64,000 nt of DNA from Spirochaeta thermophila DSM 6192 (lineage in GTDB: Bacteria > Spirochaetota > Spirochaetia > Winmispirales > Winmispiraceae). The DNA lies in assembly GCF_000147075.1 (NCBI RefSeq), contig NC_014484.1, forward strand, positions 1,815,501 to 1,879,500. Reading direction: 5' to 3'. Both the position numbers and the translations under genes were made by a program. Below, in pieces: positions 6,601-55,336 of this stretch; position 1 is the stretch's first letter; each line of letters opens with the position of its first letter. A model generated the notes under the pieces. The model made no database searches and was not told the DNA's origin. It saw only the letters and a list, made by a program, of their open reading frames with translations.

Positions 6601-6923
6601 GGGGCCACCCCCATGAGCACCCCGCCGAGGAGGAAGACCCCCACGGGGAAGATCCTCACCCAGAAGAGGATACGCCCCCTGAACCCCGCCGCCCCCGTGG
6701 CCACCAGGAACCAGGAGAAGGGGAGGAGGAAGAGGGGATGGTACCAGATGAGCCGGACATTGGGATCGTCCACGAAGACCGTATGCCCCATCACATAGAG
6801 AAGGGCGGTGAAGAACAAGGTGAAGGTGTAGAGCAGGATCCACCTCCTCAGGGGAACCTCGAGGAAGAGGGAGAAGAGGAAGAGGAAGAAACTGAAGAAG
6901 AGGAGGACCCACTCCAACGCCAT
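3687..6923 (-). CDS. Hybrid sensor histidine kinase (7TM, PAS x3, HisKA, HATPase, REC, Hpt)
   Basis: Membrane sensor of 1078 residues with a complete internal phosphorelay. Order: about seven N-terminal membrane helices (1-230), three PAS-like domains (roughly 205-330, 320-430, 440-550; the second includes CVEICKGPVLPCEECPLP, a Cys-rich insert), HisKA with phospho-acceptor His579 in SMSHEIRTPLNAI, HATPase (NLLSNALKFT, DTGIGIP, GTGLGLS), receiver with Asp867 in MDVEMPGMDG, and Hpt with His1009 in LAHSLKG. The output partner is not encoded nearby. First gene of a five-gene operon. No Shine-Dalgarno site precedes the ATG, and a promoter sits directly upstream (leaderless). Confidence 0.95.
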   Translation of the reverse strand: MALEWVLLFFSFFLFLFSLFLEVPLRRWILLYTFTLFFTALLYVMGHTVFVDDPNVRLIWYHPLFLLPFSWFLVATGAAGFRGRILFWVRIFPVGVFLLGGVLMGVAPLWVWDPESFSPRWFSYVSGGIMILYSLAVVFFRYERYGWFFRAYSPLLAAAPLGFPFIMLPEVFILWYLLGLSFGCMVFLSALAHDARVDVLPAARELIFDAMPDPVIVLDATDRIRFINKACERLVGHASQEVRGKEIDVLFPGGLFPLSLRAHMERFEIQVGSTLFEVHATWITDALGRRKGTLFHLSDITAEREAVNTLALRERQYRNVLENITVGVMLINREYVVRAWNRRMEEWFPGIPWGKEGVRCVEICKGPVLPCEECPLPPVFASGKTQRREVRRHTEEGERIFSMVATPHLDDEGVIRGVVVLLEDVTAERRATEGLERYKFMVNASADFMSLISSDFRYEAVNDAFCKAHGRGREDFVGRRVADLWGEETFRGKILPYIRRAFEGERVVVEDRFVFGLLGERDLEVSYNPYREGDRITHVAVVTRDITSYKDALRRLEDARRQAEEASRAKSAFLASMSHEIRTPLNAITGMSDLLLLSRVSPEVEEGLAIIKDSAGTLLALINDILDLSRIEAGRIELERIPLRFPDLVRHTWEMFRPQAETKGLSFELRLSEGLPPVVNGDPVRIRQILINLLSNALKFTEEGGVTLSVTGHRMYDRDWEVELVVEDTGIGIPPEKLERIFEPFTQADSSITRRYGGTGLGLSISRQLAEMMGGTIVVSSEVGRGSTFVCRIVLEEAEGEAAPPAKGQVSRASRAMRVLVVEDNRVNALVARRLLEHLGHRVLVAGSGREALDLLGREEVDAVFMDVEMPGMDGFECARRIRAGEAGERARVVPVFALTAHAVGEIRDRVDEVGMNGVVLKPVGIEDLDRALGRVAGRGEEVFPPVQDLSEEDLPHLDVEGSLLRMGGSRELLREFWEVFLRDLAEKRSSLSAALEGEEWVALSRLAHSLKGVCGNVGGVRAASLARRLEGAASRGAVEEARRLARELDEELGILGELLGRGPDMILSEQEDGRSHG

Positions 6924-6929
6924 AGACTA

Positions 6930-6958
6930 AGGATATACGACAACACCGGTTTTCTCAA
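6930..6958 (-). promoter_or_regulatory. Leaderless-type promoter of the histidine kinase operon
   Basis: On the minus strand TTGAGA (6953-6958), 17 bases, TATCCT (6930-6935), then 6 bases to the ATG. Predicted transcription start is the A of the start codon. Confidence 0.6.
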
Positions 6959-6989
6959 CAAGAAAGCCGCGCCCCCCGGTGGAAGACAC

Positions 6990-7017
6990 AAAAAGAGAGG
7001 CCCGGACGGGCCTCTCT
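6990..7017 (-). terminator. Terminator after the tRNA-Thr/tRNA-Tyr pair
   Basis: Reading minus strand: AGAGAGGCCCG, short loop, GGCCTCTCT followed by TTTTTG. It sits 4 bases after the tRNA-Tyr 3' end. Confidence 0.85.
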
Positions 7018-7020
7018 CGG

Positions 7021-7103
7021 TGGGGAGAGAAGGATTCGAACCTTCGAAGGCAAACGCCAGCAGATTTACAGTCTGCCCCCTTTGACCGCTCGGGAATCTC
7101 CCC
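7021..7103 (-). tRNA. tRNA-Tyr (anticodon GUA)
   Basis: Class II tRNA of 83 nt: acceptor GGGGAGA/TCTCCCC, anticodon loop CTGTAAATC with GTA, long variable arm, T-arm GGTTCGAATCC. CCA is not encoded. It is transcribed with tRNA-Thr from the promoter at 7209-7237. Confidence 0.96.
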
Positions 7104-7117
7104 ACATACTTTTCAGG

Positions 7118-7190
7118 AGCCAACTGTCGGATTCGAACCGACGACCCCGAGATTACAAGTCACGTGCTCTACCAGCTGAGCTAAGTTGGC
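7118..7190 (-). tRNA. tRNA-Thr (anticodon UGU)
   Basis: 73-nt class I tRNA: acceptor GCCAACT/AGTTGGC, D-arm AGCTCAGCTGGTAGAGC, anticodon loop with TGT, T-arm GGTTCGAATCC. CCA not encoded. Located 14 bases upstream of tRNA-Tyr in the same transcript. Confidence 0.96.
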
Positions 7191-7208
7191 TCGCTTTACG
7201 CGTCCATG

Positions 7209-7237
7209 TATATACTCGAAAATCATCCCCCTGTCAA
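7209..7237 (-). promoter_or_regulatory. Strong tRNA operon promoter
   Basis: Consensus TTGACA (7232-7237), 17-base spacer, TATATA (7209-7214). The -35 overlaps the last codons of the steroid-reductase-like gene, so tRNA transcription is independent of that operon. Confidence 0.85.
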
Positions 7238-7971
7238 GGCCCTATCACGGGGATGAGGGCCTTCCGATCCGCAGGATAGTCCGGGAAGTGCTCTCGGTAC
7301 CACCTGTGGTGTGAGAGGGCCCGGGGGACGAGGTTGGCACACGTCCAGAGTGCGAAGGAGACCCCTGCGAGCGACCAGGTGGCGAGGGCCCACCCCGTCC
7401 ACTCGAGGATCTCGCCGAAGTAGTTGGGACACGAGACCCACCGGAAGAGCCACCCCTGGGGGATACGGTAGCTCCCCTCCCCTTCGCTTCTGAGGGCCCT
7501 GAGCCGTGCATCGGAGACCACGTGCATCACAAACCCCGAGAGGAAGAGGCACACTCCCAGGAGAAAACGGGGATCCGAGACCCACGAGGAGGCATAGTCC
7601 TTCACGAAGAGAAGCGAGTAGGTGTTGAACCCACTGTTGGCGAGGTTGAAGGCGAGGGCCATCCCCACCACGGAGAAAGGCACGTCCTTGCGTGCCCTGA
7701 TGAGGAGGGGGAAGAGGAGGCTCCGATAGGCATAGTGAAAGATCCAGAGCCCCAGGAAAAAGGCGGCCACCCCTTCCGCCCTTCTCCACAGAAGCCCGGA
7801 GAGCGGGATGATGAGGGAAGGGAGTTCCATCACCATCCACGCCATCCGGGCATTGAGCGGTGTTCCCCACCCCTGCCGCACGTATCTGCCGTAGGGAGCT
7901 GTCACCCTTGAGAGCAGAATCCACACCGCCACGGCGAGGGCCATCCAGACAAGGACGAGACGCTCATACAT
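7234..7971 (-). CDS. Steroid 5-alpha-reductase-like membrane protein (DUF1295/methyltransferase-like fold)
   Basis: Integral membrane protein of 245 residues, about six or seven helices. The C-terminal signature SCPNYFGEILEWTGWALA, followed by a terminal HHRWYREHFPDYP, is that of the 3-oxo-5-alpha-steroid 4-dehydrogenase C-terminal family, NADPH-dependent reductases of enone lipids. A bacterium without sterols probably uses it on another polyprenoid or fatty substrate; that is inference. Start ATG at 7971 overlaps the upstream epimerase by 8 bases. Last gene of the purU operon. Confidence 0.8.
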   Translation of the reverse strand: MYERLVLVWMALAVAVWILLSRVTAPYGRYVRQGWGTPLNARMAWMVMELPSLIIPLSGLLWRRAEGVAAFFLGLWIFHYAYRSLLFPLLIRARKDVPFSVVGMALAFNLANSGFNTYSLLFVKDYASSWVSDPRFLLGVCLFLSGFVMHVVSDARLRALRSEGEGSYRIPQGWLFRWVSCPNYFGEILEWTGWALATWSLAGVSFALWTCANLVPRALSHHRWYREHFPDYPADRKALIPVIGP

Positions 7972-8941
7972 AGCCGTACTCCTTGAACCATCGATAGGTA
8001 TCCTCGAGAGTCTCCTCGAGCGGACGGGCCACGTAGCCCAATCGTCGATGCGCCCTCTCGGACGAGACCGGAGTCCGCCAGGAGAGAGCCCTGATCGCCT
8101 CTGCAGTGAAGAGCGGCTCACCGGGCAGGAGAGGCAGGAGGATCCCACCGAGACCCGCTCCGATCCGCGCAAGTCCCGGCGGCACCACCACCCGAGGCGC
8201 CCTCACGCCGGCCACTCCACACCACGCACGGGCGAGCTCCGCCACCTTCACATATCTGCCCGACAGCACGTACCGCTCCCCCCTCCGCCCCCGCTCCAAC
8301 GCCGCCACCACCCCCTCCGCCACATCCCGCACGTCCACCCAGTCGAAGCCCCCCTCCACCAGCGCCGGCACCCTCCCCCGCGTGAGCGCAATGAAGAACC
8401 TCCCCATGCGGGACGGCTTGTAGTCCTTCGGGCCTATGATCCCCGTGGGGCAGACCGCCACCACATCCTGCCCCCGCGCCGCCGCCTCCGCCGCCACCCT
8501 GAGCCCCTCCGCCTTGCTCCTGTCGTACACCGACCCCTCCCCGTCGACCAGGGGCGCCTTCTCGTCCACCACCTCTCCGCACTCCCTGAAGGCGTGGATC
8601 GAGCTCACGTGCACCACCCTCCACACACCCACCCGCGCCGCCGCATTCAGCACATTCCGCACCCCTTCCACGTTCACCCGCCATACCAAACCGCCATGCC
8701 CCCCCGATATCGACACATAGGCGGCGCAGTGCACGACCGCATCCGCCCCCTCGAAGGCCCGCTCCAGGCTCCCCCTCTCGAGCACCTCCGCCTCCACCAC
8801 CTCACACCCACACCCCTCCACCGCACGCCTGTCCCGCCGCACCACCGCCCGCACCCGGTACCCCCTCCTCAGCAGCACCTCCACGACGTTCCCACCCAGG
8901 TGCCCCCCCGCCCCCGTGACCGCGACGAGCCCCCCTCTCAC
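7964..8941 (-). CDS. NAD(P)-dependent epimerase/dehydratase (extended SDR)
   Basis: 325 residues, extended short-chain dehydrogenase. Rossmann motif TGAGGHLG near residue 10, HCAAYVS, active-site VSSIHAF with YDRSKAEG (YxxxK), and substrate-side CPTGIIGPKDY. The overall pattern resembles dihydroflavonol-reductase/3-beta-HSD-like enzymes. Pairing with the following steroid-reductase-like gene suggests two steps on a lipid or terpenoid. The GTG start overlaps the CYTH stop (GTGA). The coding strand is extremely G-rich. Confidence 0.85.
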   Translation of the reverse strand: MRGGLVAVTGAGGHLGGNVVEVLLRRGYRVRAVVRRDRRAVEGCGCEVVEAEVLERGSLERAFEGADAVVHCAAYVSISGGHGGLVWRVNVEGVRNVLNAAARVGVWRVVHVSSIHAFRECGEVVDEKAPLVDGEGSVYDRSKAEGLRVAAEAAARGQDVVAVCPTGIIGPKDYKPSRMGRFFIALTRGRVPALVEGGFDWVDVRDVAEGVVAALERGRRGERYVLSGRYVKVAELARAWCGVAGVRAPRVVVPPGLARIGAGLGGILLPLLPGEPLFTAEAIRALSWRTPVSSERAHRRLGYVARPLEETLEDTYRWFKEYGYV

Positions 8942-9471
8942 CCCTCCACCTCCGAACGCCCGCAGAGGAGCTGAAGGTAGGTCCTCGCCTCCACCGCATC
9001 CTTAAGCCCCCACCGCGCAAGCTCATCCTGCACCCGCCTCACCGCATCCTCCTCGTTCACCGCACCCACCGCCTCCACCTCCAGGAACCACCCCAGCCCC
9101 CCCACCTCACACAACTCCACCACCACCCCCTCCCCCCGGAACCGCCACCCCTGCTTCACCTTCCGCACCAGGAACGAACACCCGAGGTAATCGAGAAGCG
9201 CCCTCAGTGCCGCCGCATCCTCCACCCCGAACTCCACCTCCTCGTTCCGCTCCACCCCCGCTTCAATCCGCTTCACCTTGAAGGCGCACGTCCACCGCTC
9301 CCCCTCCCTCCGCAGGCGTACATGACGAGGCCGCACCCCCTCCACCGGAGGACCCGTGTAGTACTCGTCCTCCTTTCTGAAGGCCTCGCCCCCACCGTAG
9401 GCGGCCTCCAGCCGACCCCTCAGGGCCACGGGATCCTCCACCCACGCCTTCACCTCGATCTCCCGTGCCAC
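8938..9471 (-). CDS. CYTH-domain protein (CyaB/thiamine-triphosphatase-like)
   Basis: 177 residues, CYTH triphosphate-tunnel fold. The diagnostic ExExK is at the N terminus (REIEVKAWV), then DEYYTGPP, LRRE, FKVKRIE and ELCEVGGLGWFLEVE complete the acidic/basic strand pattern. Family members are class IV adenylyl cyclases or triphosphatases; which one applies cannot be told. GTG start with AGGAGG 6 bases upstream. It lies 8 bases behind purU and overlaps the epimerase. Confidence 0.88.
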   Translation of the reverse strand: MAREIEVKAWVEDPVALRGRLEAAYGGGEAFRKEDEYYTGPPVEGVRPRHVRLRREGERWTCAFKVKRIEAGVERNEEVEFGVEDAAALRALLDYLGCSFLVRKVKQGWRFRGEGVVVELCEVGGLGWFLEVEAVGAVNEEDAVRRVQDELARWGLKDAVEARTYLQLLCGRSEVEG

Positions 9472-9479
9472 GGCCCCTC

Positions 9480-10343
9480 CTAGTCGAAGATCACCGTCCG
9501 GTTCCTGAAGACCAGGATCCGATGATCGATGTGGAGCTTGAGCGCCCGCGAGAGCACCAGCTTCTCCACATCCTTCCCCTTCTGCATGAGATCCCTCACG
9601 GTATCCCGGTGGCTCACCCGCACCACGTCCTGCTCGATGATCGGCCCCTCATCCAGATCCTCGGTCACGTAGTGGCTCGTCGCCCCGATGATCTTCACCC
9701 CCCGCTCGTACGCCTGGTGGTACGGCCTGGCCCCTGCAAAGGCCGGGAGGAAGCTGTGGTGTATGTTGATGATCCGGTTCCGAAACTCGTTCACGAACCG
9801 GGGAGAGAGGATCTGCATGTACCGTGCGAGCACCACCAGATCCACCCCGTGCTCCTTGAGGAGGGCGATCTCCTTCTCCTCCACCTCCTCCTTGGTCTCC
9901 CTGTTCACGGGGAAATAATAGAAGGGAACCCCGAAGTACTCGGCGATCGGCCGCGTGGTCTCGTGGTTGCTCAGGATCATCACGATATCCGCATCGATCT
10001 CCCCCTCCTTGTGCCGCAGGAGCACGTCGTAGAGGCAATGATCCTGCTTCGAGACGAAGATCGCCATCCGGGTCCGCCTGTCCGAGAACTCGATCCGCCA
10101 GTCCATCCGGTACTTGATGGCGATAGGCTCGAAAGCCTGGGTGATCTTCTCCCGTGGAAGGGCGAAGTCCGAGATGTCCCACTCCACCCTCATGAAAAAG
10201 GTGTTGGTCTCGGGATCGTTGTGCTGGTGGGACTGGAGGATGTTCCCCCCGTAGGTGAAGATGAAGTGTGAGACCTCTGCGACGATCCCCTTGGTGTCGG
10301 GACAGGAAAAGAGGAGTATTGCGCTCGGAGGATGTTGTTTCAT
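9480..10343 (-). CDS. purU: Formyltetrahydrofolate deformylase
   Basis: Hydrolyses 10-formyl-THF to THF and formate, balancing one-carbon pools and feeding PurT-type purine synthesis. 287 residues: N-terminal ACT-like domain (ILLFSCPDTKGIVAEVSHFI), then formyltransferase fold with the catalytic Asn/His/Asp set (ILSNHETTRPIAEYF, INIHHSFLPAF, TEDLDEGPIIEQD). ATG chosen because the N-terminal ACT domain starts there. It is the first gene of a four-gene operon. The promoter is 6 bases upstream, giving a predicted leaderless message. Confidence 0.95.
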   Translation of the reverse strand: MKQHPPSAILLFSCPDTKGIVAEVSHFIFTYGGNILQSHQHNDPETNTFFMRVEWDISDFALPREKITQAFEPIAIKYRMDWRIEFSDRRTRMAIFVSKQDHCLYDVLLRHKEGEIDADIVMILSNHETTRPIAEYFGVPFYYFPVNRETKEEVEEKEIALLKEHGVDLVVLARYMQILSPRFVNEFRNRIINIHHSFLPAFAGARPYHQAYERGVKIIGATSHYVTEDLDEGPIIEQDVVRVSHRDTVRDLMQKGKDVEKLVLSRALKLHIDHRILVFRNRTVIFD

Positions 10344-10349
10344 GGCCTG

Positions 10350-10378
10350 ATTATAGAAGGCGGAAGGGCACGAAGCAA
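10350..10378 (-). promoter_or_regulatory. Leaderless-type promoter of purU
   Basis: TTGCTT (10373-10378), 17 bases, perfect TATAAT (10350-10355), 6 bases, ATG. The clearest case of a -10 box placed so that transcription should start on the start codon. Confidence 0.75.
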
Positions 10379-10393
10379 GCCCCACCTTCTCTC

Positions 10394-10422
10394 TGGACAC
10401 CATCCCCTCCATCCCCTAGTAT
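10394..10422 (+). promoter_or_regulatory. Leaderless-type promoter of the carbonic-anhydrase-like/crcB operon
   Basis: TGGACA (10394-10399), 17 bases, TAGTAT (10417-10422), 6 bases, ATG. No Shine-Dalgarno site is present. Confidence 0.7.
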
Positions 10423-10428
10423 GGCCCC

Positions 10429-10806
10429 ATGAGCCAGTGGATATGTCTGCTCACCTGCATGGACGGACGGATCCAGCGACCGGTCCTGGAGTTCCTCCTC
10501 GAACGGCACCCCGGGGCCTTCATCGACACCATCACCGAGCCGGGCATGGACGGCCTTCTCGCCACCCATCGGCTGGAAGAGATCCCCGGCCTCCTCCGGA
10601 AGCTGGAGATCTCGTTCGAGGTCCACGGCGCGCGTGCCGTCTACGTGGCGGGCCACACCGACTGCGCCGGCAACCCGGTGGACGATGCGGTCCACCTCGC
10701 CCACATCCGTAGGGGCATCCATCTCCTCACGGAGCACTTCCCCGGTATCCCTGTCCGCGGCCTGTGGGTGGGACCTACATGGAAGGTCGCCTCCGTGGAG
10801 GCATAG
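10429..10806 (+). CDS. Mini beta-carbonic-anhydrase-like protein
   Basis: 125 residues, much shorter than ordinary beta-carbonic anhydrases (about 200). It keeps both zinc-site motifs of that family: CxDxR as CMDGR near residue 10, and HxxC in GHTDCAGNPV near residue 80. Such short CA-like proteins are known as a separate group, and activity is not assured. It is translated first in an operon with crcB (1-base gap) and a DUF190 gene, so a role linked to anion handling is possible. The other reading, a regulator or metal-binding protein, cannot be excluded. Confidence 0.75.
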   Translation: MSQWICLLTCMDGRIQRPVLEFLLERHPGAFIDTITEPGMDGLLATHRLEEIPGLLRKLEISFEVHGARAVYVAGHTDCAGNPVDDAVHLAHIRRGIHLLTEHFPGIPVRGLWVGPTWKVASVEA

Positions 10807-14277: not shown

Positions 14278-14306
14278 TTGCCTGCCGATCCCTCCTCCCG
14301 TAGAGT
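14278..14306 (+). promoter_or_regulatory. Leaderless-type promoter of the glycosyltransferase
   Basis: TTGCCT (14278-14283), 17 bases, TAGAGT (14301-14306), 7 bases, ATG. No Shine-Dalgarno site. Confidence 0.55.
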
Positions 14307-14313
14307 ATGGCGC

Positions 14314-15858
14314 ATGAGGATCGGGATCGTGCACTACCACCTCAGACCCGGGGGGGTCACCTCGGTCATCACCGACGGGGTACGGGGCCTTCTCACCCAC
14401 TGGGAGGACGTCTCCATCCGTCTCATTACGGGCTCACGCGAGGACACCGACAGGGTGCTCCGATCCATCGGTGCAGCCTCCGACTCGCGGGTGGAGGTGA
14501 GGGTGCATCCCCAGGTGGGCTACCACGACCAGGACGCCCCTCTTCCCGACGCGACCCGCATAGAGGAGATACGACGTATCCTCACCACCGAGGCGGGCGA
14601 GTGCGACCTCCTCTGGGTGCACAACTACCACCTGGGCAAGAACCCGGCCTTCACCGAGGCCCTCCTCCGCACCATCGACGACCTCCCCTCCCGTCGTTTC
14701 CTCCTTCACATCCACGACTTCCCGGAGAGCGGTCGCTACCAGAACCTCGCATCCCTCCACCTGGTGACCCGCTCCCCCCTCTACCCCACCGGCCCCAACG
14801 TCCGCTACGCCCTCATCAACCGGCGCGACCTGCGCATCCTCAGGGAAGCCGGCATCCCGGCCGACCGCCTCTTCCTGCTGGAGAACCCCTACCACCCCCT
14901 TCCCCCGCCCACACTCACCGACCCCCGCCCGGTCCTCCTCACGCGCCTCGCCCCCCACCTCTCCCCCGCCACCCCCCTCCACCTCTCCCCCATCCGCACC
15001 ATACGCAGGAAGAACGTCCTGGAAGGGGCCCTCCTCTCCCGCCTCCTCTCGCCCGACGCCCTCTACGCCGTCTCCCTCCCCGGCACCTCGCAGCAGGAGA
15101 CGGCCTACTCCGAACTCGTGGAAGCCTGTTACCGCGAAGGCCTCATACGGGGCCTCTTCCCCCTCGGGCCCCTTGCCGAGCAGGTAGGCCTCCCCTTTCC
15201 GACCACCCTCCACGCCGCCGACCTCCTCGTGAGCTCCTCGGTCCAGGAAGGCTTCGGATACCTCTTCATCCAGGCCCTCGACGTGGGCAAACCCCTCCTC
15301 GCCCGCAGACTCGACATCCTGGAAGGCTTCGAGGAGATCTTCACCGACTACCCCGCCTTCCTTTACTCCGACGTCCGCATCCCCGCATCCCTCGTGGACA
15401 CACACCTCATCCCCATCCCCGAACTCGCCGAGGCCTACCGTCGCAAGCTCCGCACCATCACCCCCCTCCTCCCCCCCTCGCTGGGGGAGTCCCTCGACGC
15501 GCAGCTCAGGGAGGAGTTCGAATCCTCTGCCATCGACTTCTCCTACCTCCCCGTACCCGCCCAGAAGGCCCTCCTCCACCTCATCACCGAGACGCCCCAC
15601 ACCCTGGAATCGATCCGCACCGCCAACGCCACCCTCCTCGAACAAGCCGCCGAGACCCTCACCCGCCCCCTCCCCCCCGACACCCGGGACCGTCTCGCCC
15701 GATTTTCACTCGAAGCCCACCTCGTGACCCTCGCCCGAATACTCGAGAGCTACACCCTCCCCGCAACCCCCGATCCTCCCCATCCGGAGGGCATCCCCGA
15801 TCAGGTGCTCCACGCCTTTGCACGCAAGGAATACCTCAGGCTCCTCTACGATTTCTGA
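14314..15858 (+). CDS. GT-B fold glycosyltransferase
   Basis: 514 residues, soluble GT4-like glycosyltransferase. The N terminus MRIGIVHYHLRPGGVTSV is the usual GT-B opening with glycine loop, and the nucleotide-sugar site SSSVQEGFGYLFIQAL carries the paired Glu (Ex7E). Donor and acceptor unknown. A C-terminal extension of roughly 100 residues after the GT-B fold (from LREEFESSAIDF) is not recognised. ATG chosen at the GT-B strand; the region upstream holds a promoter and no Shine-Dalgarno site. Parts (about 14,890-15,010 and 15,440-15,780) are C-rich. Single gene. Confidence 0.82.
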   Translation: MRIGIVHYHLRPGGVTSVITDGVRGLLTHWEDVSIRLITGSREDTDRVLRSIGAASDSRVEVRVHPQVGYHDQDAPLPDATRIEEIRRILTTEAGECDLLWVHNYHLGKNPAFTEALLRTIDDLPSRRFLLHIHDFPESGRYQNLASLHLVTRSPLYPTGPNVRYALINRRDLRILREAGIPADRLFLLENPYHPLPPPTLTDPRPVLLTRLAPHLSPATPLHLSPIRTIRRKNVLEGALLSRLLSPDALYAVSLPGTSQQETAYSELVEACYREGLIRGLFPLGPLAEQVGLPFPTTLHAADLLVSSSVQEGFGYLFIQALDVGKPLLARRLDILEGFEEIFTDYPAFLYSDVRIPASLVDTHLIPIPELAEAYRRKLRTITPLLPPSLGESLDAQLREEFESSAIDFSYLPVPAQKALLHLITETPHTLESIRTANATLLEQAAETLTRPLPPDTRDRLARFSLEAHLVTLARILESYTLPATPDPPHPEGIPDQVLHAFARKEYLRLLYDF

Positions 15859-26270: not shown

Positions 26271-27290
26271 TCACCCTCCCATGAGATAGTCCACGCCCAT
26301 GAGGATGAGAATCCCCTCGACCACCACGGAGAGCACGAGCGAGAGCGCCGCCAGGAGGAGGATGCCCCAGCCTTTCCACCACATCCTCGAGAGGCGGGCG
26401 TACCGGTGGATGGTGTAGCCGTGGAGCAGGGGATCGGCGGCCCCCGTCTCCACCTCCCTCACCTCCAAGACGAAGGAATCCCCCTCCTCTCTCACCCTGT
26501 AGCGTCTGTCGCCGACCTCCCATGACGTCCCTTCCTCGGGCCTCCTCCTGCACGCCTTCCATGGGAGGGTCGCCTGCTCATAGGTCACGAGCGCCTTCTT
26601 CCCCATCCTCCATAGCTTCCTGTGGAGGTAGTACCCGAACACGGCAGGAGGGAAGAAGACGGAGACAGGGAGGAACGCCGCGGTGAGGGAGAGGAGTCCC
26701 TCCAGATAGTGGGTCTGGATGGACACGCTGCCGAAGAGGAGCAGGAGCAGCATCCCCACCCCCATGAAAGGCACCGTGAGAGGGTTCCAGAACTCGTTCA
26801 CGCTCCGCGCGGAGGCGATGACCGAATGGACGAGGTGGTGGAGGGGTACACTGTAGAGTACGAGCACGGGTTCCGACTGGGGATCGAGGACGATCTTGCC
26901 GTTCTCCTCCCTCACCCTCCCCGCCAGGTAGACACTCGCCCCCGAAGGAAGGTGATGCACGTCCTCCGCATGGAGCACCTCCATCCCACCCAGGCGGGCC
27001 TCCTCGCTCCCGGGAAGGAGGTGCAGGAGTACACGCGAAAGATCCACCCAGACGAGGAGTCCGTTGCACCTGACCCACAGGTAGTGGTCACGGACCAGGG
27101 AATCCACCGTCCCGAGAAACCGCCACTTCCGCCCCGTCAGAGGTTTGCCGGGACTCCAGAGGGGAAAGAGGAGGGATCCGTAGAACCGTCTCCGCCAGCG
27201 GAACCACCGGTACCACTGGAAGACCCCTCCCCCGCCGGGAATGAGTATGTAGCAGAGGAGAAAGACCGCTGTGAGGATCGTCATGCTCAT
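26271..27290 (-). CDS. Membrane protein of unknown function
   Basis: 339 residues, not recognised. One N-terminal membrane span (ILTAVFLLCYILIPGGGG), a soluble part of about 130 residues resembling an OB or NfeD-like beta region (LLVWVDLSRVLL, GASVYLAGRVREENGKIVL), two central spans (MGVGMLLLLLFGSV, FLPVSVFFPPAVFGYYL), another soluble piece and a C-terminal span (ILLLAALSLVLSVVVEGILIL). Layout like E3-ligase-type or GIDE/NfeD-like proteins, low certainty. Divergent from the metallo-hydrolase gene. Its stop codon touches that of the DbpA-domain gene. ATG at 27284 is an alternative start. Confidence 0.65.
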   Translation of the reverse strand: MSMTILTAVFLLCYILIPGGGGVFQWYRWFRWRRRFYGSLLFPLWSPGKPLTGRKWRFLGTVDSLVRDHYLWVRCNGLLVWVDLSRVLLHLLPGSEEARLGGMEVLHAEDVHHLPSGASVYLAGRVREENGKIVLDPQSEPVLVLYSVPLHHLVHSVIASARSVNEFWNPLTVPFMGVGMLLLLLFGSVSIQTHYLEGLLSLTAAFLPVSVFFPPAVFGYYLHRKLWRMGKKALVTYEQATLPWKACRRRPEEGTSWEVGDRRYRVREEGDSFVLEVREVETGAADPLLHGYTIHRYARLSRMWWKGWGILLLAALSLVLSVVVEGILILMGVDYLMGG

Positions 27291-27293: not shown

Positions 27294-27323
27294 TGGACCC
27301 AGCCCTCGGTTCCCTACTATGAT
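27294..27323 (+). promoter_or_regulatory. Leaderless-type promoter of the metallo-hydrolase
   Basis: TGGACC (27294-27299), 18 bases, TATGAT (27318-27323), 6 bases, ATG. No Shine-Dalgarno site. Confidence 0.55.
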
Positions 27324-27329
27324 CGCATC

Positions 27330-28007
27330 ATGGTGCAAAAGCTCGTGGTAGGTCAACTGGCGACCAACGCCTACGTGTACGTGTCCCAGGTCACGGGGAA
27401 GGCCCTCCTCATCGACCCCGGGGCGGATGCCCCACGGATCGTCGACTGGCTGGAAGACCTCGGGATCCTTCCCTCCGCCCTGCTGTGCACCCACGGACAC
27501 ATCGATCACGTGGGAGCCATCGGGCACCTGCTCGACCGCCTTCACCACGATCGGACCATCCCCGTCTTCCTCCACGAGGCCGATCTTCCCCTCCTCGAGG
27601 AAGCCTTCGACCTGCAGCGCGCCTGGCTCCACTCCGCCGGGATACCCACAGCCGATCTCGACCGCCCACCCGTCTCTTCGATCCGTCCCCTCACCGATGG
27701 GAAGGAACTCGACCCCTGGGGCCTTCGTCTCCTCCACACCCCCGGGCACAGCCCCGGCAGTATCTGCCTCTACGCCCCCGAGGAAGGGGTGCTCTTTTCA
27801 GGGGATACGCTCTTCCGGGAAGGGGTGGGAAGGACCGATCTTCCGGGAGGCTCGTGGGAGGCGCTGGAGAGGAGTATCGTCGAACGCCTCTATCCACTTG
27901 GCGACGGGATACGGGTCTATCCGGGGCACGGTCCGGAGACGACACTGGGCCACGAGAAGGGGTGGAACCCCTTCGTGCGGGAGGAGGGGCTCACGCCGAG
28001 AGGTTGA
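27330..28007 (+). CDS. MBL-fold metallo-hydrolase, glyoxalase-II-like
   Basis: 225 residues. Complete binuclear metal site: THGHIDHVGA (HxHxDH), HTPGHSPGS, FSGDTLF and YPGHGPETT. This pattern is that of small GloB-like hydrolases acting on thioesters or related substrates; the exact substrate is unknown. ATG directly after a -10 box. Its last 17 bases overlap the 3' end of the convergent gene at 27991. Confidence 0.88.
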   Translation: MVQKLVVGQLATNAYVYVSQVTGKALLIDPGADAPRIVDWLEDLGILPSALLCTHGHIDHVGAIGHLLDRLHHDRTIPVFLHEADLPLLEEAFDLQRAWLHSAGIPTADLDRPPVSSIRPLTDGKELDPWGLRLLHTPGHSPGSICLYAPEEGVLFSGDTLFREGVGRTDLPGGSWEALERSIVERLYPLGDGIRVYPGHGPETTLGHEKGWNPFVREEGLTPRG

Positions 28008-39222: not shown

Positions 39223-39822
39223 ATGACATCGCCGCTCAGGGTCTACCTCGTACGACACGCCGCCTGCAGCGCCCGAGGTTTCATCGGGATCACCGATCCC
39301 CCCCTTTCGGAAGAAGGGCTGCGCCAACGGGAGGCCCTCGCCCGGTTCTTCGCACCGCTTCGCCTCGAGGCGGTCTACACCAGCCCCCTCGCCCGGGCGC
39401 GGGCAACCGCAGAAGTCCTCGGCACACCGCAGGAGGTGGAAGCCTTGAGGGAAATCGACTTCGGCCAGTGGGAGGGGAAACTCCACGAGGAGATCCCCCG
39501 TGGACTCCTCGAGGCGTGGTACCAGAACCCCCACACCACCTCTCCCCCCGGCGGAGAGACCCTCGCCCGGCTCGCACAGCGGGTGCTCCCCGCCTTCAAG
39601 GAGATCGTCTCCCGACACGGTCCCGGTGAGCGCATCGCCCTGGTCTCCCACGGCGGCCCGCTCCGCACCATCGTGTGTTCAGTACTCGGTCTCCATCTCG
39701 CCTACCTCTGGCACTTCGACCTCGACCGGGCGAGCGTGAGCGCCGTGGACGTCTATCCCACAGGCTACACCTCACTCGCCTTCCTCAATCACACCTTTCA
39801 CCTGGAGGAACCAGCTCGATGA
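39223..39822 (+). CDS. Histidine phosphatase family protein (phosphoglycerate-mutase-like)
   Basis: 199 residues. Phosphohistidine motif YLVRHAACSARG (RHG replaced by RHA), YTSPLARARATAEVL, FGQWEGK and second catalytic His in ALVSHGGPLRTI. The family includes alpha-ribazole phosphatase (CobC) and 2,3-PGA phosphatases; no cobalamin genes are near. No Shine-Dalgarno; TACCTT lies 6 bases before the ATG (leaderless geometry), though no good -35 is seen. Coupled by ATGA to the next gene. Confidence 0.85.
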   Translation: MTSPLRVYLVRHAACSARGFIGITDPPLSEEGLRQREALARFFAPLRLEAVYTSPLARARATAEVLGTPQEVEALREIDFGQWEGKLHEEIPRGLLEAWYQNPHTTSPPGGETLARLAQRVLPAFKEIVSRHGPGERIALVSHGGPLRTIVCSVLGLHLAYLWHFDLDRASVSAVDVYPTGYTSLAFLNHTFHLEEPAR

Positions 39823-40689: not shown

Positions 40690-41730
40690 TCAGGCGAGGA
40701 CGTAACAGCCCGCAGCGACCCGCTCGATGAGCAGGGGAAACTCCTCCTTTCCGAGCCACCACGCCTCTCCGTCGAGCTGCACCGGAAGCCGCACCCGGGA
40801 ACGGATCCGAACCCTCTCGGCAGAGAGGAGGCGCACCTCGGGCCGGCCGCCGTGTTCCCCCCGATAGAGCAGGTTCTTCACCTCGAGCCTCCTGAGAAGG
40901 GGGGCGTGCCGGATGAGACAGAGGTTCTCCCTCCCAGGGAGGATGGGCTTCCCGTTCCCGTACGTACGCCCTCCGGAACTACCGAACGCCATGATGAGAA
41001 AGAGGTCCTCGAGCACCACCCGCTCCCTGCCGCTCACCACCTCCACCTCCACGGGTCGTTGAGGCACCACGAGCTCGTAGAACAGGGTGGCCAGATCGCC
41101 CACCGTGCTGTACCAGGTTCCCGGCATGCGGCCACCCCACCTCGCCTTCACCCGGTTGACCACCAGTGAGACGAAGGCGTCTATCCCCACGCTCACCACA
41201 TTGGCGCCCCAGCGGGGGGAGGCGGACCGGGCCGTGGTACACGCATACACCGGCACCGGCTTCACCACGTGACTCGAGAGGATCCGCCGCACCCCCTCCT
41301 CGAGACTCCCCACATCGGCCCCATCGTTTCCGCTCCCCAAGGGCAGCCTGAGAAGCCAGACATCGTCACCCGCATGCTCCCACTCCTGCCGGATACCATG
41401 GAGCACCTCGTTGTGGGTACCGTCGCCGCCGCAGCTTATGATCAGGAGTCTCCCCCTCCTCCTCCGCACCGCCTTCCTGACCTGGAAGACCGCATGCCCC
41501 GGAAAGTGCGAATAGGCCGCCCGGCAGAATCGGGGCAGCGGACCCGGCCCGTCGGGAAGGGCCGCGAGGGCCCTCTCGAGGAGGGGAGCGAGGGCCGAAG
41601 GCCGTGCGAGTATCCCGCTCGCAGGGTTGAGGAGTATGAACACCTCCCATCCCGAGGAGAAGAGCCCCGATCGGGCCGCCGCACTCCCCAGGATGTCCAC
41701 CAGGAGGTGGTGAAGGGCATATCGACTCAT
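40690..41730 (-). CDS. Diacylglycerol-kinase-family lipid kinase
   Basis: 346 residues, DAGK catalytic (YegS/DgkB) fold. LLNPASGI opening, nucleotide motif SCGGDGTHNEVLHGI, LPLGSGND, then VVSVGIDAFVSL and the C-terminal half with FGSSGGRTYGNGKPI and VQLDGEAWW. Phosphorylates a lipid such as diacylglycerol or a sphingoid base. No Shine-Dalgarno; TATACT is 6 bases before the ATG. An N-terminal extension of about 30 residues precedes the fold. Confidence 0.87.
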   Translation of the reverse strand: MSRYALHHLLVDILGSAAARSGLFSSGWEVFILLNPASGILARPSALAPLLERALAALPDGPGPLPRFCRAAYSHFPGHAVFQVRKAVRRRRGRLLIISCGGDGTHNEVLHGIRQEWEHAGDDVWLLRLPLGSGNDGADVGSLEEGVRRILSSHVVKPVPVYACTTARSASPRWGANVVSVGIDAFVSLVVNRVKARWGGRMPGTWYSTVGDLATLFYELVVPQRPVEVEVVSGRERVVLEDLFLIMAFGSSGGRTYGNGKPILPGRENLCLIRHAPLLRRLEVKNLLYRGEHGGRPEVRLLSAERVRIRSRVRLPVQLDGEAWWLGKEEFPLLIERVAAGCYVLA

Positions 41731-41736
41731 ACGGCG

Positions 41737-41764
41737 AGTATACACGGAATCCCCGGAAATGCAA
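41737..41764 (-). promoter_or_regulatory. Leaderless-type promoter of the lipid kinase
   Basis: TTGCAT (41759-41764), 16 bases, TATACT (41737-41742), 6 bases, ATG. Confidence 0.6.
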
Positions 41765-45059: not shown

Positions 45060-45088
45060 TTGCAGCATCCTCATACTCCTGATAGGAT
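45060..45088 (+). promoter_or_regulatory. Leaderless-type promoter of the MNT/HEPN operon
   Basis: TTGCAG (45060-45065), 17 bases, TAGGAT (45083-45088), 6 bases, ATG. Confidence 0.65.
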
Positions 45089-45094
45089 ACATAT

Positions 45095-45460
45095 ATGAGT
45101 ATTACTCATCGAGGCAAGGATATGGGAGAACAAGTTGCCAAAGAAACCATACGTACCGCGAAGGCCGTGATCGAAGAAGAAGTTGAAAAGGCGGGCTTTC
45201 ATGTGGCACGTATTCTTCTTTTTGGCTCACGGGCCCGAGGAGATAGCACTGCACACAGCGACTGGGATTTCTACGTGGTGGTCGATACACCGATCGATTT
45301 TCCCACGAAACGGCGTGTAGCCGGCAGCATACAAATGAGACTCGCAGAGCAGCACATCTTCTGTGATATCATCATCCAGAGCCGGGAGGCGTTTGCTCAC
45401 CTCAGCCGTTCAAAGAACACCGTTTCTTACCTAGCCCGCACCGAAGGGATCAGGATATGA
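45095..45460 (+). CDS. MNT-type nucleotidyltransferase antitoxin
   Basis: 121 residues. Minimal nucleotidyltransferase with LLFGSRARGDSTAHSDWDFY (GSxRxGxxxxxSDxD) and a later acidic strand FCDIII. In MNT/HEPN modules this protein neutralises the HEPN RNase, in characterised cases by AMPylating it. ATGA overlap with the HEPN gene. AT-richer and with different codon use (ATA, AAA, GAA) from its neighbours, which suggests transfer. A second ATG at 45122 is possible; 45095 is favoured by promoter geometry. Confidence 0.92.
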   Translation: MSITHRGKDMGEQVAKETIRTAKAVIEEEVEKAGFHVARILLFGSRARGDSTAHSDWDFYVVVDTPIDFPTKRRVAGSIQMRLAEQHIFCDIIIQSREAFAHLSRSKNTVSYLARTEGIRI

Positions 45461-49249: not shown

Positions 49250-49477
49250 CTATTCCGGCGCATTCTGCGTGATGTCCTCCTGATCGGGTGTCACCTTGCC
49301 CGGCGTGGGGGCGGGCTTTTCCTCGAACTCCGGGAGCTTTCCCCGTATCACCTTGGAATGTCGGTTCACCGCGGCCAGGTAGAGGATGATGAGGAACCCC
49401 ACGAAGAAGACCGCGGTCATGAGGAGTACTTCCCAGCGCGTGAAGACACGCAGGTAGAGGAGGAACTCCCGCACCAT
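49250..49477 (-). CDS. Single-span small membrane protein
   Basis: 75 residues: basic N terminus, one span (VLLMTAVFFVGFLIILYLAA), charged Pro-rich tail (LPEFEEKPAPTPGK). Function unknown. First gene of the operon with the two downstream genes; no Shine-Dalgarno and a -10 box 6 bases before the ATG. Confidence 0.75.
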   Translation of the reverse strand: MVREFLLYLRVFTRWEVLLMTAVFFVGFLIILYLAAVNRHSKVIRGKLPEFEEKPAPTPGKVTPDQEDITQNAPE

Positions 49478-49483
49478 ACCCCG

Positions 49484-49513
49484 ATACTACCCCCACCCAC
49501 CTCCCCCGCTCAA
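49484..49513 (-). promoter_or_regulatory. Leaderless-type promoter of the small membrane protein operon
   Basis: TTGAGC (49508-49513), 18 bases, TAGTAT (49484-49489), 6 bases, ATG. The -35 overlaps the mutS2 stop codon. Confidence 0.55.
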
Positions 49514-51843
49514 CCCCCCTCCCCCTGCTTCAGCCACACGAGCGTCCGCCCGAATCCGCCCTGTTCGGGCGGGGCGAACTGGAACCGCTCCACATGAGGG
49601 TGCGCCCGCAGGAGGTCCTGCACCCCCTTCTGGAGCACCCCCGTCCCCGTGCCGTGCACCACACTCACCTCCCGCATCCCCGCCAGCACCGCCCGGTCGA
49701 GCCACTCCTCCACCACCCGCCGCGCCTCCTCCAGCCGTATCCCCCGCACATCCAGCACCACCGGCACCCCGCCCACCGTCTCCCGCTCCACCACCACCTC
49801 CGGCCCCCTCGCCCCCCGCCCCTCGTCCACCGGCACGAGCTCCTCACCATCCACCACCACCCGCATGGTGGGAAACTGCACCACCCACTTACCCCGCTTC
49901 TCCTCCACCACCACCCCCTCCGCACGCGTCCTCACGTGCCGCACCCGCATCCCCGGCTCGATCCGCACCCTCCGCCCCCTGCGGCCCTTCACCCGCTCCA
50001 CCTCCGCCTCCTCACGCCCCACCCGCTCCTCCACCCGCGCCACCACCTCCCTCGCCCGCCGCTCCGCCTCGCGCCTCCCCTCCCGCACCTCCCGCACCGC
50101 CTCCTCCACCCGCCTCCGCGCCTCCCTGAGAAACTCCCGCAGATCCCTCACCCCTTCACGCCTCAACTCCGCCTCCCACCGCTCACACGCCTCCTCCCGC
50201 TCCCTCAGTGCCCGCTCACGAGCCTCCACCTCCCTCTCACGCCGCGCACACTCCTCCTCCCGCCACGCAAGCTCCTGCTCCCGGGTGAGCAGGTTGCGGA
50301 TGAGCACCGACACCTCCTGCCCGCGCCCCGAAAGGTACTCCTCCGCCCGCCTGCACACCCCCTCCGGCACCCCCATCCGCCGCGCGATCGCCAGGGCATA
50401 GCTCGCCCCCGGCACCCCCGGCGTGATCGTGTAGAGGGGCCTGAGACTCTCCTCGTCGAAGTTCACACTCGCGTTCATCACCCCCGGCGTGGCGTACGCA
50501 TACGCCTTGAGCGCCGCCTGATGCGTCGTCACCAGCACCCACGCCCCCCGCTGCCGCAGCTCCTCCAGCACCGCCACGGAGAGCGCACCCCCCTCCTCCG
50601 GATCCGTCCCAGAACCCAGCTCATCGAGGAGCACGAGCGAACGCGCATCCGCCTGATCCAGCACCTCCGCCACTCGCTTCATGTAGGCCGAGAACGTGGA
50701 CAGCTCGCTCTGGAGCGACTGCTCGTCGCCCAGCACCACCAGCACCCGCTCGTACACGGGAAGCACCGTCCCCTCCTCGGCCGGCACCTCCATACCGAAC
50801 TGGTGCATGAGCACCGCGAGCCCCAACGTCTTGAGGAAGACCGTCTTTCCCCCCGCATTCGCCCCCGAGAGCACGCACACCCTCACCCCCTCCTCATAGG
50901 CAAAGTCCACCGGCACCGCCTTCTCCCCCAGGAGCGGATGCCGCAGCTTCCTCCCCACCGGCCGATCCCCCCGCGCAGGAGCCACACACCGATGCACCGC
51001 ACCGTAGCGCGCCTTGGCGTACGCCGCATCGAGCACCCCCAGCACCCCCCGGGCGTACTCCACCTCGGCCCACCTGGCCCGTACCCGCTGAGAAAGCTGC
51101 CCCAACAGCCGGTCCACCACCTCCTGGTAGCGGTTCTGCTCCTGGACGAGCAGGTTGTTCTGCTCCACAATCTCGAACGGCTCGATATAGGCCGTAGCCC
51201 CGCTGGACGACACCTCATGCACAATACCCCGCACCCTGCCTCTGAAATTGATATTCACGGGCAGCACCGTGCGCCCCTCGCGCTGGGTGGGAACCGCGGC
51301 CCTGAAGACTCCCTCAAAGGCCGGATCGTGCAGGTAACGGTAGGCGATGCGCTCGATCTCCTCTTGAATCGCGCGGATCCGCTGCCGAATCTGCCTGAGC
51401 TCGGGCACCTGCTCCTCCCTGATCTCGGGCGGAAAGGCAATGTAGCGCGAGAGGAGCTCGTACTCGGCCGAGAAATCGGGCAACGCGGCCGCAGGACCGC
51501 TGAGCGGGGGAAGGTCGGCCTCCACGAGCGAGGCGCGCAGACGCATGAGCGCCTCGAACCACAACATGTAGGCACACAGATCTTCCAGGGAAAGCCGTGC
51601 TCCCTCGGTCTTGAGCAGACCCTGCAGTGCCCCGATATCGGGAAACGAGGGAGGAAGCTCCACGCCCCGGGCGATGAGGGTGCGCCACGCCCCCACCCGC
51701 GCAAGCTCCTCCTCGATAAGACGGGGATCGGTGAAAAACCCCTGCTCCCCGAGTCTTCGCCGCCCCTCCTCACTCAAGGCATACGAAGCGACCTCTTCCA
51801 GGATGAGAGGAAACTCAAGCCGCTCAACCGACCGCGCATCCAT
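49510..51843 (-). CDS. mutS2: MutS2 endonuclease/ribosome-splitting ATPase
   Basis: 777 residues. MutS2 lacks the mismatch-recognition domain and acts in anti-recombination or in splitting collided ribosomes. Order: helical clamp core, ABC ATPase with SGANAGGKTVFLKTLGL, LLDELGSGTDPEEGGAL and TTHQAALKAYAY, a long coiled coil (about 520-620, very Arg/Glu rich), KOW-like segment (IEPGMRVRHV), and C-terminal Smr domain (LDVRGIRLEEARRVV, VVHGTGTGVLQKGV). Codon composition changes inside the gene: the 5' 600 bases ordinary, the rest extremely G-rich on the coding strand. No Shine-Dalgarno; TACCAT 6 bases before the ATG. Confidence 0.95.
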   Translation of the reverse strand: MDARSVERLEFPLILEEVASYALSEEGRRRLGEQGFFTDPRLIEEELARVGAWRTLIARGVELPPSFPDIGALQGLLKTEGARLSLEDLCAYMLWFEALMRLRASLVEADLPPLSGPAAALPDFSAEYELLSRYIAFPPEIREEQVPELRQIRQRIRAIQEEIERIAYRYLHDPAFEGVFRAAVPTQREGRTVLPVNINFRGRVRGIVHEVSSSGATAYIEPFEIVEQNNLLVQEQNRYQEVVDRLLGQLSQRVRARWAEVEYARGVLGVLDAAYAKARYGAVHRCVAPARGDRPVGRKLRHPLLGEKAVPVDFAYEEGVRVCVLSGANAGGKTVFLKTLGLAVLMHQFGMEVPAEEGTVLPVYERVLVVLGDEQSLQSELSTFSAYMKRVAEVLDQADARSLVLLDELGSGTDPEEGGALSVAVLEELRQRGAWVLVTTHQAALKAYAYATPGVMNASVNFDEESLRPLYTITPGVPGASYALAIARRMGVPEGVCRRAEEYLSGRGQEVSVLIRNLLTREQELAWREEECARREREVEARERALREREEACERWEAELRREGVRDLREFLREARRRVEEAVREVREGRREAERRAREVVARVEERVGREEAEVERVKGRRGRRVRIEPGMRVRHVRTRAEGVVVEEKRGKWVVQFPTMRVVVDGEELVPVDEGRGARGPEVVVERETVGGVPVVLDVRGIRLEEARRVVEEWLDRAVLAGMREVSVVHGTGTGVLQKGVQDLLRAHPHVERFQFAPPEQGGFGRTLVWLKQGEGG

Positions 51844-51849
51844 GCCCCC

Positions 51850-51878
51850 ATGGTACGGCAACACGCCCCCTTCCGCAA
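51850..51878 (-). promoter_or_regulatory. Leaderless-type promoter of mutS2
   Basis: TTGCGG (51873-51878), 17 bases, TACCAT (51850-51855), 6 bases, ATG. Confidence 0.55.
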
Positions 51879-51922: not shown

Positions 51923-51924
51923 CC

Positions 51925-53607: not shown

Positions 53608-54464
53608 TCGAGCACACCTCCAAAGGAGACTCCGTAGTGCCGGGTGAACCTGACATACCGACCCTCGGGAGGGGTCCGCCCGGTGAGGTAGAACGAGGCT
53701 GTAGAGGGGCCCCTCCTCCCACAGGGGAGGTACGAGAGGAGGTGGACGAGCCTGCGGCCCACTCCTTCCCGGGAGTCTATCACCTGCACGTGCTCCCCTG
53801 CGAGGGAGCGGATCTGGGCCTCGAGGAACACGAAGTGGGTGCAGCCGAGCACGATGGTGTCGGCGCCCTGGGCCACACAGCGCTCCACCGCCTCCCGGAC
53901 TGCGGTGCGGCGTTCCTCCTCTGCGGCATCGATGAAGCGGTGTTCCACGAACTCCACGATGTGCGGGGAAGGGACCTTCACCACCCGCGCGCCGTTCGCA
54001 TAGGCGGCGATGAGCTCGTCGGTGTAGAAATCCCTCAGGGTCCGCTCGGTGGCAAGAAGGCCTACGACGCCCGTACGGGTGAGGGAGGCGGCGGGCTTGA
54101 TGGCGGGCACCACGCCCACGAAGGGGATCTCGTACCGGGCACGCAGGGCGGGCAGCCCCACCACCGAGGCGGTGTTGCAGGCGAGCACCACGAGCTTCGG
54201 CCTGAACCGGCGAAGCAGATCGGCCACCAGGTCCACCAGGATGGCCTCGAGCTCTTCGTGGGATCTGGGACCGTAGGGGAAGTGGGCCCTGTCGGCGACA
54301 TAGACGAACTCCTCGCCCTCGATGTGCTCGAGGGCCCACAGGAGGTAGGGGATACCGCCTATCCCAGAATCCAGAAAGAGCACCGGCCGGCACGAGTCAT
54401 CCAAAGAGGTCTTCAAGCGCTTTGCGAGCTCTTCTTCGTTCCTCCGCGTTCCTGTCTCCTGCAT
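53604..54464 (-). CDS. murI: Glutamate racemase
   Basis: 286 residues. Makes D-glutamate for peptidoglycan. Both catalytic cysteines are visible in VLACNTASVVGLPAL and IVLGCTHFVFLEAQI; the N-terminal glycine loop is LFLDSGIGGIPYLLWAL. ATG at 54464 chosen for GGAAGAGGACC upstream; it starts 68 bases inside the preceding zinc-ribbon gene. A TTG at 54404 would give a shorter protein closer to the family N terminus. Confidence 0.93.
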   Translation of the reverse strand: MQETGTRRNEEELAKRLKTSLDDSCRPVLFLDSGIGGIPYLLWALEHIEGEEFVYVADRAHFPYGPRSHEELEAILVDLVADLLRRFRPKLVVLACNTASVVGLPALRARYEIPFVGVVPAIKPAASLTRTGVVGLLATERTLRDFYTDELIAAYANGARVVKVPSPHIVEFVEHRFIDAAEEERRTAVREAVERCVAQGADTIVLGCTHFVFLEAQIRSLAGEHVQVIDSREGVGRRLVHLLSYLPCGRRGPSTASFYLTGRTPPEGRYVRFTRHYGVSFGGVLE

Positions 54465-54678
54465 GGTCCTCTTCCGTCGGTGTGAAGTAGTCGCAGAAAT
54501 TGGCCCTGTCCTTCTCGGCGACCCGTTCGGGGATGGTCTCCCTGCACTCCCAGTGGGCGTTGGGATCGTAGAATCTGCAGTTGAGGCAGACCCGTGCCTC
54601 CTTGCCACAGGAGGGGCAGAGCGTGGAACGGTACACCTTCTCCACCTCGATGGGCGCCCCGCAGGCATAGCATCTCAT
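54397..54678 (-). CDS. Small multi-zinc-ribbon protein
   Basis: 93 residues with four Cys pairs or singles: CYACG, CPSCG, CLNC, then WECRE and FCDYF. The pattern suggests one or two zinc ribbons. It ends with a charged helix (RRRARKALEDLFG). Function unknown; probably nucleic-acid or protein binding. No Shine-Dalgarno; TAGAAT lies 7 bases before the ATG, with a poor -35. Its 3' end overlaps murI by 68 bases. Confidence 0.85.
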   Translation of the reverse strand: MRCYACGAPIEVEKVYRSTLCPSCGKEARVCLNCRFYDPNAHWECRETIPERVAEKDRANFCDYFTPTEEDHAGDRNAEERRRARKALEDLFG

Positions 54679-54692
54679 GGTGTATATTCTAA

Positions 54693-54721
54693 TTGTAAAA
54701 TCCACGGAAATAAAGTATCCT
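54693..54721 (+). promoter_or_regulatory. Leaderless-type promoter of the pentapeptide gene
   Basis: TTGTAA (54693-54698), 17 bases, TATCCT (54716-54721), 6 bases, ATG. The -35 is next to the -10 of the divergent zinc-ribbon gene (54686-54691). Confidence 0.65.
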
Positions 54722-54727
54722 GTGCAC

Positions 54728-55336
54728 ATGTTCGTCCCTACGCCGTGTGCACATGAGGGATGTCCGGGTTTTGCCGTCTCGGGGTACGATCGGTGTTTCT
54801 CCCATCTTACGGCCGATGAACAGGAGGCGTTCGCCTCCCGGATACGTGAGATGCTCACCCGGCAGGAGCGGATCACCGATCTCTCGCTCTCGGGCATGGA
54901 CCTTTCGGGGCTTCCGCTCTCGGGGAAGCGGCTATATGCCTGCAATCTCTCCGGATGTCGTCTCTCGAACACCAGGGTGGAGAAGCTCCTGCTCAGACTC
55001 TGTTTCCTGGACGGGAGTGTCTTCGAGGGGGTGACATTCACCGGCCTGGATACGAACTTCTGCAGTTTTGCGGGGTCGCGTGTGGTGGGGTGTACAGTGG
55101 AGGAGTCGGATGTGCTCACCTCGAATTTCAACGGCAGTATCTTCGAGGAGAGCGAGTTCAAAAGCTGCGATCTCTACCACTCCCGCTTCATGCTGAGCTC
55201 GCTCAGGAAGGTCCGTTTCTACGACTGCAACCTGAAGCGTACGTACTTTATCGGGGCTCTGTTGGAGGAGGTGACGTTCCCCTACTCCAACGACGAGGAT
55301 GCCTACTTCGCGCCGAAGGAGGAGACGCCGCTGTGA
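54728..55336 (+). CDS. Pentapeptide-repeat protein with N-terminal Cys/His knuckle
   Basis: 202 residues. N terminus CAHEGCPGF followed by CFSHL looks like a small zinc knuckle (CxxxxC...CxxH). From about residue 55 on, pentapeptide repeats (A/S/C-N/D-L/F-x-x) are continuous: LSGMDLSGLPLSGKRLYACN, SNFNGSIFEESEFKSCDLYH, building a right-handed quadrilateral helix. Function unknown. GTGA overlap with the next gene. Confidence 0.85.
   Translation: MFVPTPCAHEGCPGFAVSGYDRCFSHLTADEQEAFASRIREMLTRQERITDLSLSGMDLSGLPLSGKRLYACNLSGCRLSNTRVEKLLLRLCFLDGSVFEGVTFTGLDTNFCSFAGSRVVGCTVEESDVLTSNFNGSIFEESEFKSCDLYHSRFMLSSLRKVRFYDCNLKRTYFIGALLEEVTFPYSNDEDAYFAPKEETPL

Follow-up and report, generated by a model that had tools for sequence, protein, structure and literature searches.

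Candidate leaderless gene starts with sigma70-type promoters in Spirochaeta thermophila

Are some genes of a spirochaete transcribed from the first base of their start codon? The question is raised by a 64,000-nucleotide stretch of the genome of Spirochaeta thermophila DSM 6192 (the window; positions 1815501-1879500 of a genome that forms one contig of 2,472,645 bases, with 62-64% GC), in which an earlier note proposed that ten genes are preceded by a promoter whose -10 hexamer, TANNNT, lies so close to the ATG that no leader would be transcribed. Reading of the letters at each coordinate confirmed that TANNNT ends 6 bases before the ATG at nine of the ten starts and 7 bases before it at the remaining one, that of a glycosyltransferase gene, and that a -35-like element of the TTG or TGG type stands upstream of all ten hexamers with a spacing of 16-18 bases. 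The pattern is real, but similar ones are known from other bacteria, including spirochaetes, and its novelty had been overstated. As judged from sequence, a minority of the genes in this genome are very probably leaderless and transcribed from sigma70-type promoters.

Distance between the -10 hexamer and the ATG

A count of TANNNT at each distance upstream of start codons, compared with shuffled sequence as the earlier note had suggested, gave a sharp peak at 6-7 bases. The sample comprised 40 stretches of 20 kb and the window (together 864 kb, 35% of the genome), in which 750 genes were called by a home-made Markov gene finder and in-frame candidate ATGs were taken up to 60 bases from each called start. 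Among 862 such ATGs the hexamer was found at distance 6 in 37 and at distance 7 in 19, while 300 dinucleotide shuffles gave an expectation of 7.6 at either distance (standard deviations 2.9 and 2.7, maxima 20 and 16). Other distances averaged 9.4, with 13, 7, 12 and 12 matches at 4, 5, 8 and 9 bases. In this genome the peak is confined to ATG, as GTG starts gave 8 and 8 matches at distances 6 and 7 against 7.1, and TTG starts 2 and 2 against 1.6. Weaker hexamers, with two of the three key bases, contributed nothing at distance 6-7.

Counted per gene, the excess at both distances amounts to 38 of 686 genes (5.5%), and to 34 of the 384 first genes (8.9%). The density of ten per 64 kb does not hold genome-wide. 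The signature occurred in 10 of the 62 called genes of the window and in 45 of 617 elsewhere (p = 0.02, post hoc), and therefore ten in 64 kb overstates the share, which is modest, an estimated 5.5% or so of genes. The ten window genes of this comparison are not identical with those listed in the earlier note: our caller missed the nucleotidyltransferase and metallo-hydrolase genes and misplaced purU, and three others were counted.

Independent signs accompany the same starts. A Shine-Dalgarno (SD) motif, defined as GGAG, GAGG or AGGA inside the tested upstream window, was present at 5 of the 56 signature matches and missing at 51, compared with 375 of 679 called starts carrying it, and with 24% at a shifted position. 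Hexamers at distance 6 had better-matching -35 elements than those placed elsewhere (p = 1.4e-4). A pyrimidine occupied position -1 in 50 of the 56 matches, compared with 178 of the 263 ATG starts led by an SD (p = 0.0005) and 37 of 57 matches at control distances (p = 0.0019); a pyrimidine just before A is favoured in bacteria when the transcript begins on that A. With operons assigned from strand and gap only, the signature was found in 48 of the 384 first genes and in 6 of 291 operon-internal ones. The claim that all ten genes are first in their transcripts is uncertain, because the gene for the small membrane protein follows mutS2 at a distance of 32 bases and has the same orientation.

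These signs suggest the following mechanism. About 5.5% of genes, and about 9% of first genes, would be served by ordinary sigma70-type promoters, TTGNNN followed after about 17 bases by TANNNT, with 6-7 bases between the end of the -10 hexamer and the ATG. Since RNA polymerase usually initiates 6-8 bases beyond that element, the RNA would have the A of AUG as its first base and would lack a leader. Translation would then begin on a 5'-terminal AUG, presumably by the 70S ribosome; we infer both this route and the transcript start. Most other genes are translated via SD sites, and the 16S rRNA ends at its 3' side in GGATCACCTCC, a normal anti-SD tail.

Some observations weigh against this reading. 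The gene starts come from our own simple caller, not from annotation. Out-of-frame ATGs of one class gave 2 matches at distance 6 (mean 3.3), and those of the second class carry a small excess, 6 against 1.7. The preference for a pyrimidine at -1 over SD-led starts was not significant in four other genomes, G001, G155, G013 and G021 (p = 0.071, 0.069, 0.49 and 0.51, respectively). The gene sample of G001 was weaker, with 8 and 9 matches at distances 6 and 7 against 5.1, and that of G002, a member of the same family with 38% GC, showed no excess among 166 genes (3 and 5 against 7.1), yet the whole-genome count of G002 passes the threshold given below. Finally, three of the ten starts have SD-led alternatives in frame: an ATG 27 bases downstream at the MNT-type nucleotidyltransferase gene, possibly a GTG 15 bases downstream of ATG 14314 at the glycosyltransferase gene, and a GTG 57 bases upstream of ATG 10343 at purU.

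Alternative readings and the ten starts

Among the alternatives, the one that survives best is that for some genes transcription begins a few bases upstream of the ATG, leaving an ultra-short leader. In relatives of the gene for the MBL-fold metallo-hydrolase TANNNT lies mostly about 9-11 bases before the ATG, which implies a start about 3 bases upstream, and the window copy has a second -10 candidate, TACTAT, ending 9 bases before ATG 27330; from this comparison the leader of the metallo-hydrolase gene may measure 0-3 bases. We rate this reading as unlikely: over the genome the peak stands at 6 and 7, with 12, 12 and 11 matches at distances 8, 9 and 10 against a mean of 9.5, and the pyrimidine before the ATG fits a start on A.

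It is still less probable that the genes are leadered, with the true SD-led start codon lying downstream and the nearby in-frame ATG being fortuitous. The alternatives at the nucleotidyltransferase and glycosyltransferase genes would suit this account, as would the upstream one at purU. At seven of the ten starts, however, no SD-led alternative occurs within 120 bases, and a fortuitous ATG would not peak at a single distance, be ATG only and stand without an SD site. Moreover, Pfam domains begin near the ATG, at residue 4 in the carbonic anhydrase, residue 8 in the MBL-fold protein and residue 9 in PurU. Chance matches chosen by eye, TANNNT being a loose motif, are scarcely credible, and for the whole set of ten they are refuted by counts that exceed both those in shuffles and those at other distances. 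Chance should nevertheless account for about 9 of the 37-38 matches found at distance 6 over the genome, so that one or two of the ten could be accidental, and the signature is denser in the window than elsewhere.

Taken as candidate leaderless starts, the ten sites have the following layout. The start of the histidine kinase gene (6921..6958, minus strand) combines ATG 6923 with -10 TATCCT at 6 bases and -35 TTGAGA at a spacing of 17; its frame closes 3 bases upstream of the ATG, and no SD-led alternative lies within 120 bases. At purU (10341..10378, minus strand; ATG 10343) the elements are TATAAT at 6 and TTGCTT, spacing 17, and at the putative carbonic anhydrase gene (Pro_CA_2; 10394..10431, plus strand; ATG 10429) they are TAGTAT at 6 and TGGACA, also with a spacing of 17. 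The frame of the latter opens 9 bases upstream of its ATG, with no SD-led alternative. These two genes are divergent (10343-10429), and the 85 bases between their start codons consist of two back-to-back leaderless-type promoters. The gene named glycosyltransferase in the earlier note (14278..14316, plus strand; ATG 14314) has TAGAGT at 7 and TTGCCT, spacing 17. The MBL-fold hydrolase gene (27294..27332, plus strand; ATG 27330) has TATGAT at 6 and TGGACC, spacing 18, and the lipid kinase gene of DAGK type (41728..41764, minus strand; ATG 41730) has TATACT at 6 and TTGCAT, spacing 16, again with no SD-led alternative.

The absence of SD sites, claimed for all ten starts, holds at nine and fails at the nucleotidyltransferase gene (45060..45097, plus strand; ATG 45095), whose -10 TAGGAT at 6 contains AGGA at SD distance. 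This start is ambiguous, because its -10 doubles as a possible SD and the SD-led ATG lies downstream; its -35, TTGCAG with a spacing of 17, was picked by eye. The small protein gene (49475..49513, minus strand; ATG 49477) shows TAGTAT at 6 and TTGAGC, spacing 18, mutS2 (51841..51878, minus strand; ATG 51843) TACCAT at 6 and TTGCGG, spacing 17, and the pentapeptide-repeat protein gene (54693..54730, plus strand; ATG 54728), with no SD-led alternative, TATCCT at 6 and TTGTAA, spacing 17. Pfam backs eight of the ten proteins and gave no match for the supposed glycosyltransferase or the small protein. Three more candidate starts with TANNNT at 6 or 7, at 39223 (plus), 19691 (plus) and 2375 (minus), are absent from the list of the earlier note.

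Relatives and the class-wide count

In G001 (2,560,222 bases) nine of the ten sites were found in the 100 kb taken, with the -10 hexamer unchanged in all nine; this conservation lends only weak support, the two strains being about 95% identical in that stretch. The unmatched histidine kinase gene probably lies outside the stretch taken. At mutS2 the -10 and spacing are unchanged in an aligned stretch that is 82.8% identical. The comparison with G002 covers purU, the lipid kinase, the MBL-fold hydrolase and mutS2. The first three of these four orthologues keep TANNNT at 6-7, purU (L230) in the same layout and the lipid kinase (L290) in a similar one with TATAGT at 7; from the rate in G002 itself the chance of three in four is about 4e-4. 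The mutS2 orthologue has GGAG in place of TANNNT. The putative carbonic anhydrase had no relative in five of the six genomes searched, G002 included.

Across the class, 7 of 30 purU loci carry the signature, 17 have an SD only and 6 have neither, and therefore whether a gene is leaderless or SD-led changes over evolution. Of 16 lipid kinase loci, 6 show the signature at one or other candidate start, and several of those starts are weakly placed. That mutS2 is leaderless in relatives was considered and rejected, as the signature occurs at 2 of 18 loci, both within this genus.

Gene-level excesses in samples of other genomes were 2.1% of 312 genes in G001, 4.4% of 148 in G013 and 4.3% of 148 in G021. 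The highest share seen, about 17%, comes from a small sample of 54 genes in G155, where the whole-genome count was 241 against 59. Leaderless starts on GTG occur in some bacterial groups. In G013 (L117-L126) GTG starts numbered 3 at distance 6 and 4 at distance 7, where the mean is 0.9, and GTG may be leaderless there too.

The whole-genome count compared TTG-N20-TANNNT-N6-ATG with the same pattern having N9 in place of N6 in 247 Spirochaetota genomes, thus with a single control distance and a single fixed promoter spacing, at a threshold of p < 0.001. In the class of the window, Spirochaetia, 39 of 69 genomes had an excess at N6 (totals 4888 against 2283), compared with 13 of 178 in other classes of the phylum. 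G001 (49 against 22) and G002 (75 against 38) both pass, while the genome of the window just misses the threshold (50 against 24, p = 0.0017). Among named spirochaete bins, Spirochaetaceae bin59 gave 43 against 27 (p = 0.036), Spirochaetales Spiro_07 93 against 28, and two Treponema sp. bins 102 against 51 and 88 against 20. In 19 non-spirochaete genomes, mostly Firmicutes, the totals were 925 and 828, and none fell below p = 0.01. The count suggests that the same excess is present across Spirochaetia. None of the 16 genomes of family f19 showed it (416 against 455). This family looks like Borreliaceae, to judge from its sampled member G020, which has a 917-kb contig and 29% GC; the gene sample of G020 (179 genes) likewise had no excess. 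Absence of excess in AT-rich genomes says little because the background there is high.

A separate problem is the start of the MBL-fold hydrolase gene. In 25 orthologues (L260-L287, L319, L321 and L331, with near-duplicates dropped and three added) aligned over a block corresponding to 27322-27352 (plus strand) of the window, bases before the ATG are nearly fixed: A at -8 and T at -4 in 22 each, A at -3 in 24 and C at -1 in 23. No SD was found at any start of the listed orthologues, and no reading frame is open through the block in all of them. On the opposite strand the fixed bases read TGnTAnnnT, an extended -10 for a divergent gene, overlapping the ATG of the hydrolase gene; the copy in this genome departs from that pattern. 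The divergent gene encodes an uncharacterised membrane protein and in this class starts mostly 25-70 bases upstream of the hydrolase gene. Its window copy (26271-27290, minus strand) is a homologue by BLASTP (24% identity, E = 2e-16), with no Pfam or NCBIfam match; a longer reading frame in its phase, starting at about 27737-27749 and running over the hydrolase gene, is probably over-extended. A block of the form A...TANC ATG ... GTAGG had been considered as a leader or RNA element and was dropped, as it mostly fits the extended -10 of the divergent gene. Its exact pattern matches 3 of 247 genomes, this one not among them, in a draw that hardly includes the families where the block was seen, and the match in G196 may be due to chance. 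The divergent -10 does not account for codon 7, where 21 of the 22 valines are encoded by GTA against 5.2 expected (p = 7e-14, the best of 91 columns, a value too small because the sequences are related and some nearly identical).

Place among known leaderless genes

A joint reading, which we offer tentatively and rate a little short of probable, would be that leaderless promoters are old and class-wide in Spirochaetia and lost or submerged in the Borrelia-like family, that genes switch between the leaderless and SD-led states, and that at the hydrolase gene the start and first codons are constrained as nucleotides, since the divergent extended -10 overlaps the ATG and a translation start and two opposing promoters share 30 bases. 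The counts are compatible with an old class-wide habit lost in the Borrelia-like family, and do not prove it. The pattern is suggested across the class (39 of 69 genomes) by a cheap genome-wide count, and direct tests would be worthwhile in the Treponema bins with an excess. In such genomes a leaderless model is needed for start calling, or starts will be misplaced; we advise it because our own caller failed at three of the ten genes in the way described above.

Among the papers searched, none joins Spirochaeta thermophila with leaderless genes, nor Treponema with leaderless genes and transcription start. The view that such a share is unexpected in a spirochaete was not borne out. Zheng et al. 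(2011; PMC3160421) take TANNNT about 12 bases upstream as the mark of leaderless (TA-led) genes, report such genes in 207 of 953 bacterial genomes, and predict them in 6 of 18 Spirochaetes genomes, at a mean of 3.9% (range 1.8-6.9). The share of 5.5% found here is therefore inside the range known for the phylum. Likewise, a differential RNA sequencing study of Leptospira interrogans (PMC5243855) reports leaderless transcripts as common there. It maps the transcript start onto the translation start in 184 genes at 30 C (170 at 37 C), and gives about 440 genes with leaders under 10 bases.

With our candidates, a spirochaete of high GC content and moderate leaderless share joins a known pattern. 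They resemble the TA-led genes of PMC3160421 in the position of TANNNT (about 12 bases, counted from the first T) and in forming a minority; that survey used whole RefSeq annotations of 2010, whereas our estimate comes from a 35% sample of one genome. Leptospira interrogans (PMC5243855) belongs to the same phylum but to a different class, and its starts were mapped experimentally, while ours are read from DNA. With the leaderless genes of Deinococcus-Thermus and Actinobacteria (PMC3160421), the candidates of S. thermophila share a high-GC genome and the bare TANNNT pattern, but they make up about 5.5% of genes, in contrast to averages of 39.4% and 19.2%, respectively.

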